From NCBI RefSeq assembly GCF_019059575.1, contig NW_024882974.1, forward strand, positions 98,143-162,142: 64,000 nt of DNA. The letters are read 5' to 3'. The translations under genes were made by a program, and so were the position numbers. This document shows positions 23,401 to 44,400 of the stretch, piece by piece (position 1 is the stretch's first letter; every line of letters begins with the position of its first letter). A model generated the notes under the pieces. The model saw only the letters and a list, made by a program, of their open reading frames with translations. It made no database searches and had not been told where the DNA came from. Source of the DNA: Amphibalanus amphitrite. Its lineage: Eukaryota; Arthropoda; Thecostraca; Balanomorpha; Balanidae.

Positions 23401-26400
23401 CCTTGGTGACCTGACCTGTGACCTGGTAATGTCAGTGACCTCTTATAGCAATATCCGAAGGTTGGGACTTTTCAATTAGACAATCACTATTCTTTAGAAT
23501 TGTGATTTTCTATTGAAAATCCCAACCTGAGCTACCTCTCTAGGGGGGTGTTTAGCGTTTCTGCCGCGATTTAGGACATTTTGACTCCCGCAAAAACGGC
23601 ACGGTCAACTTTCTTGCCATTTTCACCGTTTGGTCCCCTATGGGGGAGCTACCTTGTGGCAAAGTTGCATAAAATATAATGGGCCCGTTTTGGGGTAATC
23701 GGCACGTGCATTTTCCCATAGGGTTAACATGGGGAAAAATTGGAAATTCGATTTGCGAAAAATTTCGTCAATTATATTTGCTGATATTTTTAGGGTCGGA
23801 TCTAGGGCTGGCACCTCAACTTTTGGTGTTAATTATTTAAAAATCATAGGATACAATTTCGGGTAATTGGAACGGATAGTTACCCCATGCTGAGCCTATG
23901 GCGATTTCAAAAAATTATTTTCAAATCAATTTTGCCAAAAATTTCCACGTTAGATTTTGAAAAAGTTCCAATATGTTGTGCACCGGGGTGTCGGCTACCA
24001 CGTGGTATGGGTCAGATATGGGGCGATTGAAAAGCACGTGCCACGTGCAAACGTGTTTGATGGGGTAACCTCCGGGAAAATCCGACATTGGCCAACTGGG
24101 GGTCCTATGGCGTGGAAACCACTCCACTTAGCGACACCAAATCAACGCAGCCGGTGAGCAGATGAGTCCAGCTTGTCGCACTAGTGGTCACGTGGCGCAC
24201 GTGCTATTGCACGTGCCGTGGCACGGGGCCAATTTTGGTGCTTAAATATACTAGCACTGTGAAATGCAAGGAATGGGGGAAATAGCCGCCAGGCCGACAG
24301 ATTTTATGATAGGGTCGATCTGAAAACGGGTGTAGGCACAGAATGAAGGGGGCTAAAAAACTGCTATCTCGGATTTTTTTGTAAAATGAAAAATTCAAAA
24401 TTCTGGGGAAATTATATATTCGAAAGGTGAAATTTCCCTAAATTTTCCCGTTTTTTGACTTAAGCCGTCCACTGTTCAGGGACGGTGACACCGGCCGGGG
24501 TCATCTTTTATATGCTGATGGCCACGTCGATGGGTCATCACGTGGTGTGAGCGGTGAAGCTATCAAAGGTCCGGCACGTGCCACGTGGCCACGTGTTTGA
24601 ATCGAGCACCTCCCAGATTATCGTGTGTTTGCCGATTTGTGGCGTTATAGCACGAAAACAGCACCAGTCAGGAAGCCTAAAATAGTTCAATCGGCGAGGG
24701 GACAAGTCCTGCTTACACCACCAGTGGTCACGTGGCACACGTGCGAAGATGGGCACCTTCGTGGCGGAGATATTTTATAGTGAAATATTCAAATGTACAT
24801 AACTTTGTCAGTTTAAGTCCGATTGGGCTAAAATTTGGTGGCTGGATGCATTGTTAAGCGGCAGGAACAAGTGCGCCACGTTTGTTGCAGTGCGCCACGT
24901 TTGTCTCAAAGCGCCATTTTTGCCGCAAATCGCAGAATGTGCGTATCTTTGTCGAACATGGGACGATTAGGATGCGCTGTGATTGAGGTATGGCTGCCTT
25001 AACGGCAGATATGAATGCATCACATTTGCCGCAAGGCGTCATATTTGTCTTAATGCGTCAGTGTTTGCGTTTTGCCCACGGCGGGCGTTTTTTGCGGCGG
25101 TGTTTGCGTTTTTTCGGTGTTTGCGTTTGGCGGCGGGCGGCCGTTTTTTTGCGGCGTTTTGCGGTTGGCGGCGGGCGGGCGGGCGTTGCGGGCGTTTTTT
25201 GCGGCGGTGTTTGCGTTTTTTGCGGTTTTTGTGTTTGGCGGTGGGCGGGCGGGCGATGCGGGTGTTTTTTACGGTGTTTGCGTTTGGCGGCGGGCGGCCG
25301 TTTTAGCGGCGGTTTGCGGCGGGCGGCCGTTTTTTGCGGCGTGTTTCGGTTTGCGGCGGGCGGCCGTTTTTGCGGCGTTTTGTGGTTTGCGGCGGGCGGC
25401 CTTTTTTGCGGCGTTTTGCGGCTGGCGGCGGGCGATGCGGGCGTTTTTTTGCGGCGGCGGTGTTTGCTTTTTGCGGCGTTTTTTGCATTTTTTGCGTTTT
25501 TTTCTGCGTTTTTCGGCGGGCGGGCGATTGTTTCTTTTTTTGCGAAGTTTGCGTTTGCGTTTTGGGCGTGCGTTTTGCGCGTTTTGCGGTGTTTGCGTTT
25601 GGCGGCGGGCGGGCGGTTTTTCACAATTAAAGTCCCAACCTTCGGATCCGCAGTGCTGTTCGACAAGCGCTGCCCGGGCCTATCCGAAGGTTGGGACTTT
25701 TCAATTAAGAACAATCACTATTCTTTAGAATTGTGATTTTCTATTGAAAATCCCAACCTGAGCTACCTCTCTAGGGGGGTGTTTAGCGTTTCTGCCGCGA
25801 TTTGGGTCATTTTGATCGCCGCCGAAACGGCTCGGTAGATTTTCTTGCCATTTTCAGCGTTTGGTCCCGTGTGGGGGAGCTACCGGCTGGTACCGGTCGC
25901 TTGAAATATAATTAACCCGTTTTGGGGTAATCGGCACGTGCATTTTCCCATAGGGTTAACATGGGGAAAAATTAAAAATGCGATTTGCGCAAAATCTGTT
26001 CAGTAATATTTGTCCACTTTTTTAGGGTCAGTTCTTGGGCTGGCACCTCACCTTCTGGGGGTAATTATTTAAAAATCATAGGGTACAGTTTCGGGTAATC
26101 GTGACGGACAGTTACCCCATGTTGAGCCTATGGCGATTTCGAAAAATTATTTTCAAATCGATTTTGCAAAAAATTTCCACGTTAGATTTTGAAAATGTTC
26201 CAATATGTTGTGCCCCGGGGTGTCGGCTACCACATGGTATGGGTCAGATATGGGGCGATTGAAAAGCACGTGCCACGTGCAAACGTGTTTGATGGGGTAA
26301 CCTCCGGGAAAATCCGACATTGTCCAACTGGGGGTCCTATGGCGCGGAAACGACTTCATCTAGCGACACCAAATCAATGCAGCCGGTGAGCAGATGAGTC

Positions 26401-41400: not shown

Positions 41401-44400
41401 CAAATGAACATAACTTTGTCAGTTTAAGTCCGATTGGGCCAGACTTTGGTGGTTGGATGAATTGTTAAGCGACAGGAACGAATGCGCCACGTTTGTCGCA
41501 GTGCGCCACGTTTGTCTCAAAGCGCCATTTTGCCGCAAATCACAGAATGTGCTAACTTTATCGAACATGGGACGATCAGGATGCGCTTTGATTAAGGGAT
41601 GGCTGCTTAAAAGGCAAATATGAATGCACCACACTTGCCGCAAAGCGCCATATTTGTCTTAATGCGTCAGTGTTTTCGTTTTGTGGACGGCATGCGTTTT
41701 TTTGCGGCGGTGTTTGCGTTTTTCGGTGTTTGCGTTTGCCGGCGGTCGGCCGTTTAGCGTTTTTTTTGTGGTGTTTGCGTTTCGCGGCGGGCGGCCGTTT
41801 TTTGTGGCGTTTTGCGGTTGTCGGCGGGCGGGCGTGCGATGAAGGGGCGTTTTTTGCGGCGGTATTTGCGTTTTTTGCGGTGTTTGTGTTTGGCGGCGGG
41901 CGGGCGGGCGACGCGGGTGTTTTGCAATGTTTGCGTTTAGCGGCGGGCGGCCGTTTTTTTTGCGGCGGTTTGCGGCGGGCGGCCGTTTTTTTGCGGCGTT
42001 TAGCGGTTTGCGGCGGGCGGCCGTTTTTTTGCGGTGTTGCGGTTTGAGGCGGGCGGCCGTTTTTTGCGGCTGTTTGTGGCGGGCGGCCTTTTTTGCGGCG
42101 TTTTGCTATTTGCGACGGGCGGCCGTTTTTTGCGGAGTTTTGCGGTTGCCGGCGGCCGGCCGTTATTTGCGGTGTTCCGGTTTGCGGCGGGCGGTCGTTT
42201 TTTGCGGCGTTTCGCGGTTGGTGGCGGGCGATGCGGGCGTTTTTTGCGGCGTTTCGCGGTTTGTGGCGGGCGATGCGGGCGTTTTTTGCGGCGGCGGTAT
42301 TAGCGTTTTTTGCGTTGTTTGCGTTTTGCGGCGGACGCGCGTTTTTGCGGCGTTTTTTTTGCGTTTTTTTTGCGGTTTTCGGCGGGCTTGCGATTGTTTT
42401 TTGCGAAGTTTGCGTTGGCGTTTATGGCGTGCGTTTTGCGCGTTTTGCGGTGTTTGCGTTTTGCGGCGGGCGGGCGGTTTTTTCACAATTAAAGTCCCAA
42501 CCTTCGGATCCGCAGTGCTGTTCGACAAGCGCTGCCCGGGCCTATATGTACTAGGCAACTGACGCCCTATCGCTGATTCTCGACAAAATGCGTTTTCTTC
42601 GGTGTTATAGCGCATTCCCTAGATGACCCGTGAACGGTGAAACATTTCATCTTTGACCTGACCTGTGACGTCATCGGTGACCCCGAGGTCAATGAAATTT
42701 GGTTTCCTTCAACAAATTTGACAGGCCTTTCGAACGCCGTTTGAATTTTGCGGATCCGTCCAGTAGTTTCGGAGATACGAGGGGGGGGGGCAAAAAATAG
42801 CCCCCCCCCCACCAGGTCGCGTTATAAACAGACCCCACCAGGGCGCGGGTTAAATAACAATATTTTGTCGTGGTAAAGGCATTCGAGGTGCATAGACACG
42901 TTGGCGTAAGTACTTGTACCTAAGCAATTCACGCTCATATGACTCGGTGTTGCGGTCATTTCTACAGGTACCAATCTAAAAAAATAGCATAGGTAGATAT
43001 GTGATGATCAGCAGTTTCGTACATTTGGCATGAATAATAATCACTCACATAAATCACTCACAAGCTCGCTTCGCCAGGGCCAAAACTGTGAAGGGGACGA
43101 GACAGTACCACAGATTCTGTCCAGTTGACCTGACCACAGTCCGCGTCCACGAGCTTTCAGAAGATCGGGAGGGCAAGGAAGTCAAAGTGTCTTAGATAAG
43201 CACATACAAAGTAGACGAGCTTGGAAAGTTGCACTGTTGGATCGGACCAATGTTGTGTTGTGTTGTTGTGAATATGTTGTCGGTTTGCTGTGTGCCGTGC
43301 GTGCCGATTAGGGTGTACATAGGAAAATGTTTTATGTGAGTGATTATTATTCATGCCAAATGTACGAAACTGCTGATCATCACATATCAGCTACCTATGC
43401 TATTTTTTTTTTTTTAGATTGGTACCTGTAGAAATGACCGCAACACCGAGTCATATGAGCGTGAATTGCTTAGGTACAAGTACTTACGCCAACGTGTCTA
43501 TGCACCTCGAATGCCTTTACCACGCCAAAATATTGTTATTTAATCTGGCTGAAAATAAACATTTTTCACGGAATAAAAACGTTTTTCGCCAATATCTTAT
43601 TATGTTTATTAAGTCAGATGTATAAAATAGCGCCATCGTGTTTGCTTTTTCCAGTCGGATCGAATTGTATAAGTTTTTATTTCGAAAGGTCAAATATGAA
43701 ATTTGACCAAAATTTGACCCTAGGTCAAGGTCACGAAATGACCTTAACATATAAGGCTGCGTATGGCATGATGCGCCTGGCCAAAGTGAACTAATTGATG
43801 TGTTTCCCAAATCCCTATACCTATTCTATCAAAAGATATAGACATAAAAGGCATATGAATGTCGTGAGTCATAATGTGACCTCGGATGACCTTTCCGCGG
43901 GTCACTGATGCAAAATTGCACCAGAGTGATCAATAATAACCTAATATGGTATGATTATGAAGTAACTGTACCAGTCCGATGCGTTTTAGTGGCCTAGCCG
44001 GTACTTTTGCCATTGACTTATAATGGGCAGGTCACAAAGATGACCTGACCTGAGGTCAATGCAGGCCGATAGCCATGTTTTTTATTGTCGCATATGAACG
44101 ACCATTGATAAGGCTTGAATCGTCATCAGACCAAATTTTAACTTTCAGGTGGGAAAGTGTCAAGGTCACTCTTCAAAAAATAGGTCAAGAGGTCACGTGA
44201 CCAAAATTTTCGAAAATCGAAAATCCGAGATAGCCAAAAGTTTCCTTGGTTGATTTTGAGTTGGAAGACATAAAGTTATCCTTATACAAAAGTCAATAGT
44301 TTTTGAGTTATGAGCCGCCAAACATAGGGTTGAAGCGTGACCTCCAGAAATTGCCCGAGGCTATATCTCGTTAACCGTTCGTCGAAAAAAAAAATCATCG

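Follow-up and report, generated by a model that had tools for sequence, protein, structure and literature searches.

How tandem arrays of transposons originate is an open question. Two models have been published, both described in one review (PMC12628747), so that the kind of process is already known, and they predict opposites: an inserted rolling-circle concatemer should leave identical neighbours, whereas repeated insertion should leave different neighbours and identical copies at distant places. Concatemers of truncated elements were held responsible for tandem truncated Helitrons in plants, in which 5' ends are in excess (Xiong et al. 2016, via PMC12628747), and several insertions at one place for tandem dimers of Drosophila elements such as hobo and of target-duplicating elements (McGurk and Barbash 2018, via PMC12628747). 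Here we describe a nineteen-kilobase nested tandem of Helentron-like units of two families, type 1 and type 2, in a stretch of 64,000 nucleotides from Amphibalanus amphitrite (C1477:98143-162142, hereafter the window; the genome assembly comprises 807.55 Mb in 2644 contigs, cited as C plus a number). The arrays sampled mainly fit the repeated-insertion pattern, with exact end-to-end joins.

Several rolling-circle transposons offer points of comparison, for which we draw on parts of the papers cited. Helraiser forms circles with exact head-to-tail junctions, requires its 5' end and uses its 3' hairpin as a terminator (PMC4778049). DINE-1/HINE elements are non-coding. They have tandem repeats in their interior and a 3' palindrome, and their subterminal inverted repeats lie within a few bases of the 5' end and some tens of bases away from the 3' end; DINE-1 also has an inner 5' inverted repeat. 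In mite HINEs the subterminal repeats are 12-15 bp long and lie 2-4 bases from the 5' end and 38-60 from the 3' end, and the palindrome lies 8-35 from it (PMC4067079). The Helitron2-type elements FoHeli1 and FoHeli2 of Fusarium oxysporum (~6 and 5 kb) have asymmetric terminal inverted repeats and hairpins at both ends, and insert between T and A according to the text, while one figure legend prints T (PMC5148889). Joined-end amplicons are described for FoHeli1, and composites that combine several 5' ends with a single 3' end are modelled there as self-insertions (PMC5148889 section 16). The same paper considers FoHeli1 unlikely to be in tandem in the strain studied, mentions three tandem copies in Metarhizium acridum, and cites tandem Helitrons in bat, Drosophila, rice and maize. 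Finally, Cg_HINE of Crassostrea gigas combines subterminal inverted repeats, a 5' inverted repeat, a microsatellite, central satellite-like repeats and a 3' palindrome (PMC7492417). The units described here resemble DINE-1/HINE, FoHeli and Cg_HINE elements in these structural features, apart from the size of FoHeli and the 3' distances of mite HINEs.

The type-1 array occupies positions 23452-42542 of the window and contains three units, A, B and C, joined head to tail. An insert of 11,994 bp (28113-40106) splits the 5' hairpin loop of unit C, which is otherwise complete.

23452..25680 (+), type-1 unit A, complete, 2229 bp
25681..28069 (+), type-1 unit B, complete, 2389 bp
28070..28112 (+), 5' part of type-1 unit C
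40107..42542 (+), remainder of type-1 unit C, including its 3' end
25107..25620 (+), GC-rich TTTGCGGCGGGCGG satellite in the 3' third of unit A, found also in B, C and the type-2 copy Y

The A/B and B/C junctions are identical (...CCCGGGCC|TATCCGAAGG), and the array starts and ends at this same point, with ...TATAGCAA|TATCC on its left and GGGCC|TATATGTAC on its right. The sequence-only reading of this DNA had proposed both that the units are joined at one exact point and that the array is bounded there, and the junctions agree with it on both counts; its coordinates for the array (23453..42543) were displaced by one base. The nineteen-kilobase nested tandem is real, and is confirmed to within one base. 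The bodies of A, B and C are 90.1-92.1% alike, and unit A recurs full-length at 99.5-99.96% identity on C1930, C109 and C227. CACGTG motifs are 18-20 times denser in the array than in its flanks (3.77 versus 0.21 and 0.19 per kb).

The two ends of the type-1 unit are as follows.

23452..23530 (+), type-1 5' end: subterminal repeat and long hairpin with apex CACTATTCTTTAGAATTGTG; predicted fold of -34.1 kcal/mol with RNA parameters
25634..25680 (+), type-1 3' end: the 5' repeat in inverted orientation, followed by hairpin GCAGTGCT...AGCGCTGC and CCGGGCC; predicted fold of -17.3 kcal/mol with RNA parameters

Type-1 units start with TAT, and a 17-bp subterminal repeat (CCGAAGGTTGGGACTTT) follows, 3 bases in from the 5' end. 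It has two pairing partners: an inner inverted copy ~50 bp downstream, with which it forms the 5' hairpin, and AAAGTCCCAACCTTCGG near the 3' end, where the inverse copy ends 35 bp from the terminus; the 3' hairpin has an 8-bp stem followed by 7 terminal bases. Type-2 units start with TAACCGCAGGTTGTTT and end with an inverted repeat copy and the hairpin CCAGCATCGCAGATGCTGG. Their subterminal repeat (CCGCAGGTTGTTT) is 13 bp long and lies 3 bases from the 5' end and 35 from the 3' end, and the 8-bp stem of their palindrome is flush with the 3' end. Compared with mite HINEs, the 3' distances fall just outside the range described, both for the repeat (35 bp) and for the palindrome (7 bp in type 1, 0 in type 2).

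Both types have subterminal inverted repeats near both ends and a 3' palindrome near the end, as in Helentrons and HINEs. The elements also show the asymmetric terminal inverted repeats and hairpins at both ends that characterize Helitron2 (PMC5148889). On the basis of these ends, the units can be placed structurally with Helitron2/HINE elements. The earlier description of the ends as Helentron-like holds in this respect: the subterminal inverted repeat, the two hairpins and the lack of a visible target duplication all resemble DINE-1/HINE and Helitron2. A canonical Helitron (Helitron1; 5'-TC ... CTRR-3', target A|T) was also considered. It does not match the 3' end, which reads GGGCC followed by TAT, TAA or TAC, and it is disfavoured by the strong inverted repeats, as canonical Helitron ends lack subterminal inverted repeats.

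Type 1 departs from Helentrons and HINEs in its target. Nine type-1 3' ends lack a unit start directly after them (a tenth, listed with them, is the B/C junction), and in all nine the next bases are TA (TAT in six); two of the nine (C1930 and C536) run into other type-1 sequence, and three have shortened tails. Type-1 starts without a preceding 3' end have A, G or C as the base to their left. Type 1 thus inserts at T|A (or before TA), as FoHeli1 and FoHeli2 do according to the text of PMC5148889, and the T|T target proposed previously does not hold for this family. The TT dinucleotide of Helentrons and HINEs is therefore lacking, and on this point formal membership of type 1 in the Helentrons fails. 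Judged from the flanks, no target duplication is visible; on the same footing, the DNA around the array would read ...TATAGCAA|TATATGTAC without it, with no duplication. Duplication of a TAT target is disfavoured by right flanks of TAA (C109 and C1930) and TAC (C18), the left end of the element being TAT in every start shown. With a T|A target, each type-1 insertion would leave a new TA 3' of itself. As TA by itself is too frequent to account for stacking, recognition of resident ends, or recombination there, would be needed.

Exact end words were searched in the whole genome, with reversed words as a control. The type-1 5' word matched 914 times, the type-1 3' word 834 times and the type-2 3' word 1767 times, with no match for any reversed word; the end words occur more often than by chance. 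A 35-base type-1 3' word had no match in IMG/VR, from which records of this genome may be left out. Positions were compared for the first 100 listed places of each pattern, ordered by contig number, to which all following counts out of 100 refer. Defining a cluster as same-strand ends with gaps under 7 kb, 66/100 type-1 and 84/100 type-2 3' ends were clustered, and the other 34 type-1 3' ends were single; complete single type-1 units of ~2.4 kb were seen by eye in the lists on C3, C8, C22, C45, C54, C90 and C93. Of the 100 type-1 5' ends, 65 belong to complete units with a 3' end (64 of 1974-2480 bp and one of 108 bp). A further 15 are followed by a second 5' end before a 3' end appears, 5 have a 3' end at a distance of 2.9-8 kb, and for the last 15 no 3' end lies within 8 kb. 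Exact abutment to an upstream ...GGGCC was found for 36 of them, and 20 more start at most 30 bp away. Genome copies bounded at the proposed ends, as had been predicted, are thus numerous; this does not extend to all, however, as 25/100 3' ends and 15/100 5' ends are unpartnered. Within the fetched loci described below, unit starts that match the 5' end of unit A over the full 80 bp do so at 95-100% identity, and full-length type-1 3' ends are 98-100% identical. At joins the type-1 3' end is often ragged, with tails that have lost CC or end at CAGTG, CGCT, TTCG or AAGCG.

Two regions in these lists stand out by their organization. At C80:907159-997852 lies a long type-1 region with a strand switch near 941 kb, in which 5'-end spacings recur in blocks, by eye resembling a higher-order repeat. 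On C7, a type-1 3' end (C7:2000078) lies 161 bp from a type-2 3' end within a type-2 cluster (C7:1981358-2014872), so that the two families mix.

The relationship between arrays was studied at 18 loci, including the window, that were fetched around the best matches to unit A (227 kb) and that yielded 49 units with lengths of 1.9-2.7 kb. Among 1103 pairs of units from different loci, 17 or more have a whole-unit identity of at least 99.4%, a lower bound obtained behind a word filter and without counting gaps. Adjacent units, in contrast, are less alike: in 26 of 27 pairs the identity of the 1.4-kb body is 90.2-97.1%; the remaining pair, on C1489, is 100.0% identical in the body and 99.9% over the full unit. 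In eight pairs that were profiled, the shared unit is 99-100% identical in every 150-bp bin, while the bins of the neighbours range from 78 to 99%, mostly 85-97%. Counting neighbours as different below 97%, and host DNA on one side as different, the left side differs in 14/15 between-contig pairs and the right side in all 14 that could be tested; restricted to pairs with a unit on that side at both loci, 7/8 left and 7/7 right neighbours differ. A single lineage was found with non-unit DNA on both sides (C1305:138059, with a type-1 fragment ~1.1 kb upstream), as the first unit (C305), as the last (C18) and internally (C2071). As shared units mostly stand beside different neighbours, the sampled arrays look like mosaics of separately moving units. 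Neighbouring units usually belong to different lineages, which rules against a rolling-circle concatemer of one template as the main process and does not support the initial interpretation of the head-to-tail array as a simple rolling-circle product. Transposition of whole arrays, or of the host element, is likewise disfavoured as the source of the near-identical copies, since neighbours and flanks differ.

Truncated units recur in the same manner. C1489 and C272 share, at 100% identity, a unit of 1937 bp that has no 3' end and whose neighbours there are 93-94% (left) and 92% (right) identical; unbroken identity continues 55 bp past the unit start and 30 bp past its end. Similarly, a truncated unit of 1375/1377 bp occurs twice in C536 at 99.86% identity, between different neighbours. 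Such recurrence fits release from one 5' end to the next and is not explained by termination at the unit's own 3' hairpin; recombination could also produce it.

The insert in unit C breaks the hairpin loop at ATTCTT|TAGAA (28112/28113, with re-entry at 40107). It consists of three type-2 copies, X, Y and Z, with 5' ends at 28113, 30106 and 38108, and has a single complete type-2 3' end, at 40106, which belongs to Z, the only copy with a 3' hairpin.

28113..30105 (+), type-2 copy X: lacks its 3' part and combines a type-2 head with a type-1-like body
30106..38107 (+), type-2 copy Y: its last bases are CCCGCGAT, which would immediately precede the terminal hairpin that it lacks; split by another element
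30873..36208 (no strand assigned), DNA element inside Y with ends GGGTTGGGA...TCCCAACCC and a THAP-like stretch, seen by eye only
34536-34913, TTA microsatellite within the element inside Y
38108..40106 (+), type-2 copy Z, with 5' end and 3' hairpin

X breaks off within its body, at a point that corresponds to GTGTT|TGCG in intact units; compared with such a body, the X/Y junction is GTGTT|T. At their heads, X and Y are 96.4% alike and Z is 92% like both, while the bodies of X and C are 94.4% alike. An insertion of type 2 at T|T in the type-1 loop had been proposed; the location in the loop is correct, and at 28112/40107 T|T and T|A read the same. The order of the parts would follow from nested self-insertion, as in the FoHeli model, followed by replication that began at the outermost 5' end and ran on until it met an intact 3' end. 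Y would have landed in X and Z in the tail of Y, after which replication from the 5' end of X to the 3' end of Z would have released a composite that landed in the loop of C. Within the element inside Y, palindrome-rich GCGAATGGACTAGTCC-like repeats (33112-33238 and 35027-35171) lie inverted on either side of the TTA microsatellite.

Taken together, we lean towards the explanation that type-1 and type-2 units are non-autonomous, non-coding Helitron2/Helentron-like elements, moved in trans by a rolling-circle transposase, and that their arrays grow one unit at a time by self-targeting. Replication would start at the 5' end of a unit (TATCCG...) and stop at the first terminator or at the 5' end of the next unit, giving a one-unit circle. 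This circle would be joined preferentially at the 5'/3' junction of resident copies, since the junction would carry the enzyme's own nick site and would be re-created by each insertion. Arrays would thereby grow unit by unit, and units would come to be common to arrays across the genome. Several observations support this account: the many places with exact ends, copies that stand in non-unit DNA, exact end-to-end joins, full-length near-identical units beside different neighbours in different arrays, and units with a shortened or missing 3' end just before the next 5' end. A more far-reaching version, which we advance tentatively and which may well prove wrong, is that of a "transposing satellite", in which the 5' end serves as origin, terminator and preferred landing site, and any 5'-to-5' stretch of either family, whether or not it has the 3' terminator, can be released as a one-unit circle and dropped into the junctions of other arrays.

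A number of points weigh against stepwise self-targeting. The single-unit circles are a proposal, and no circle was observed. Because loci were chosen as best matches to unit A, its lineage is over-represented, in 6 of the 17 near-identical pairs. The pair on C109 and C1930 also has ~1.6 kb of its left neighbour in common, and of three same-contig pairs, one has a common right neighbour, one a common left neighbour, and one neither. The constancy of the 5' end is partly built into a search that used 5' words, to which 5'-damaged copies at joins are invisible. Such copies exist, as 25/100 type-1 3' ends lack an exact 5' word at a distance of up to 6 kb, and the contrast between a constant 5' end and a ragged 3' end is weakened accordingly. 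On comparable contigs no Rep partner with these ends was found, in a search that did not include the endonuclease. Lastly, the fetched loci contain a 5.3-kb multi-unit duplication in C740 and the two adjacent 99.9% units in C1489, and not all tracts of identity are bounded by units.

These last points belong to the main rival, homologous recombination, which we judge unlikely on the whole. Here arrays would start by insertion and then exchange units through unequal crossing-over, gene conversion or circle integration at ends that are strongly conserved. Unit ends are indeed more conserved than interiors, the spacings on C80 repeat in blocks (by eye), and truncated units are common to different loci as well. 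We compared 34 between-locus identity tracts of at least 1 kb, taken without preselecting whole units and from pairs that are not independent, with end zones defined as -95 to +140 bp relative to a unit start or 3' end in one or the other locus. Left tract ends fell in an end zone in 24 cases, in the interior in 9 and at the edge of the fetched sequence in 1; right ends fell in an end zone in 19 and in the interior in 15. In total, 43/67 judged tract ends thus lie in end zones, yet these hold only 14-26% of the bases in the perfect-identity blocks of at least 20-60 bp on which recombination could act, measured in 60 unit pairs with slightly narrower zones. The excess of breakpoints at unit ends is clear, but not total. 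Nineteen of the 24 interior tract ends involve the copies of unit A on C740 and C1043, and some of these lie in the GC satellite, where slippage is possible. The interior ends and the block duplication in C740 indicate that ordinary recombination acts too; a near-identical copy with non-unit DNA on both sides, however, needs insertion.

The other alternatives fit less well. A circle lacking a terminator could be copied many times and the multimer inserted whole, which would produce head-to-tail arrays, units without 3' ends and more 5' than 3' words, as well as the one near-identical adjacent pair. It predicts near-identical neighbours throughout, however, whereas in these arrays the near-identical copies mostly lie elsewhere and 65/100 5' ends are those of complete units, and we consider it quite improbable; the mosaic make-up of the sampled arrays argues against it, and for serial end-targeted addition of single units. 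Even less probable is an ordinary satellite whose border hairpins and repeats have no role in transposition. Its clustered head-to-tail organization would be accounted for, but not the single 3' ends and the single units on seven contigs, the C1305 copy with non-unit DNA on both sides and TA as its right flank, or the exact ends of the type-2 composite in a type-1 loop. We give almost no credence to an assembly artefact, in which collapsed or misjoined repeats would mimic the sharing of units. The repeats are long, the assembly comprises 2644 contigs and the arrays are known from assembled sequence, not from reads; adjacent units nevertheless differ by 3-10% in 26 of 27 pairs, and shared units stand beside different neighbours or flanks.

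For the transposase that self-targeting would require in trans, the genome was searched with the profile PF14214, with 150 of 160 candidates scored. This gave 148 matches to the Rep domain, in open frames of up to 1960 residues, and rolling-circle Rep-like stretches could be recognized by eye in the translations. On C1-C103, 25 Rep positions were compared with the first 100 listed type-1 3' ends, and none came within 58 kb (other matches on these contigs are fragments near those 25); of 14 on C1-C31, none came within 328 kb of the first 100 listed type-2 3' ends. Five Rep translations had no tblastn match at 0.01 in the fetched arrays or the window, and ten fetched Rep loci had no match in any type-1 or type-2 unit of the window. 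Only one of them, L034, matches the window at all, over short stretches of 42-132 bp, one of which (34121-34169) is in the element inside Y.

Rep matches of like score recur on one strand in steps of 10-17 kb on C2217 (7200/20194/33204), C173 (3165/14624/27636) and C64 (112486/129853/143065). Likewise, matches recur at C2314:28989/40412, C1505:41275/51392 and C1662:28299/54736; the spacing is 13.0 kb twice on C2217 and 26.4 kb on C1662. From this spacing, the autonomous elements may themselves be in tandem. Two 3579-bp Rep loci on C105, at 385033 (-) and 403997 (+), are perfect reverse complements ~19 kb apart.

The array is enclosed by inverted repeats of 0.97 kb that span 22.9 kb.

21594..22571 (+), left inverted repeat flanking the array region, 95.7% identical to the inverse of 43540-44507
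43540..44507 (-), right inverted repeat, partner of 21594..22571

A second inverted repeat (94.9%; 42850-43056 and 43328-43543) lies to the right of the array within the outer pair. Upstream, at 18398-19123 (+), is a P-element-type transposase frame (TNP-like RNase H, PF21787, E 5.5e-30), the sole Pfam match among nine frames of the window. Repeats rich in CGACTC-like hexamers, some of them inverted, occur at 11302-11840, 55689-55777 and 61082-61245. No tRNAs, and no RNA families at gathering score, were found in the window.

Compared with the described systems, the A. amphitrite arrays differ in several ways, within the parts of the papers used. HINEs target TT where type 1 targets T|A, and the mosaic arrays of whole units, like the lack of a partner with these ends on comparable contigs, set these elements apart from them. 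FoHeli1 and FoHeli2 are larger than the units here, which measure ~2.0-2.5 kb and form arrays of many units. In Cg_HINE the satellite lies within single elements, whereas here the whole element is the unit of the array. The arrays also differ from the plant tandems, in that they consist mostly of full units whose neighbours are of different lineages, and from the tandem dimers of Drosophila and target-duplicating elements, in that the elements are of rolling-circle type without visible duplication, stack repeatedly and share units between loci. Searches of the open-licence literature of PubMed Central, mostly at the level of listings, did not bring up a description of full-length Helitron-type units common to arrays with different neighbours.

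The persisting identity of some copies makes the process look recent and open to testing. If the reading of a "transposing satellite" is true, release from one 5' end to the next would also account for the continued movement of units that lack a 3' end, and would turn a dispersed rolling-circle transposon into mosaic arrays that exchange their units.

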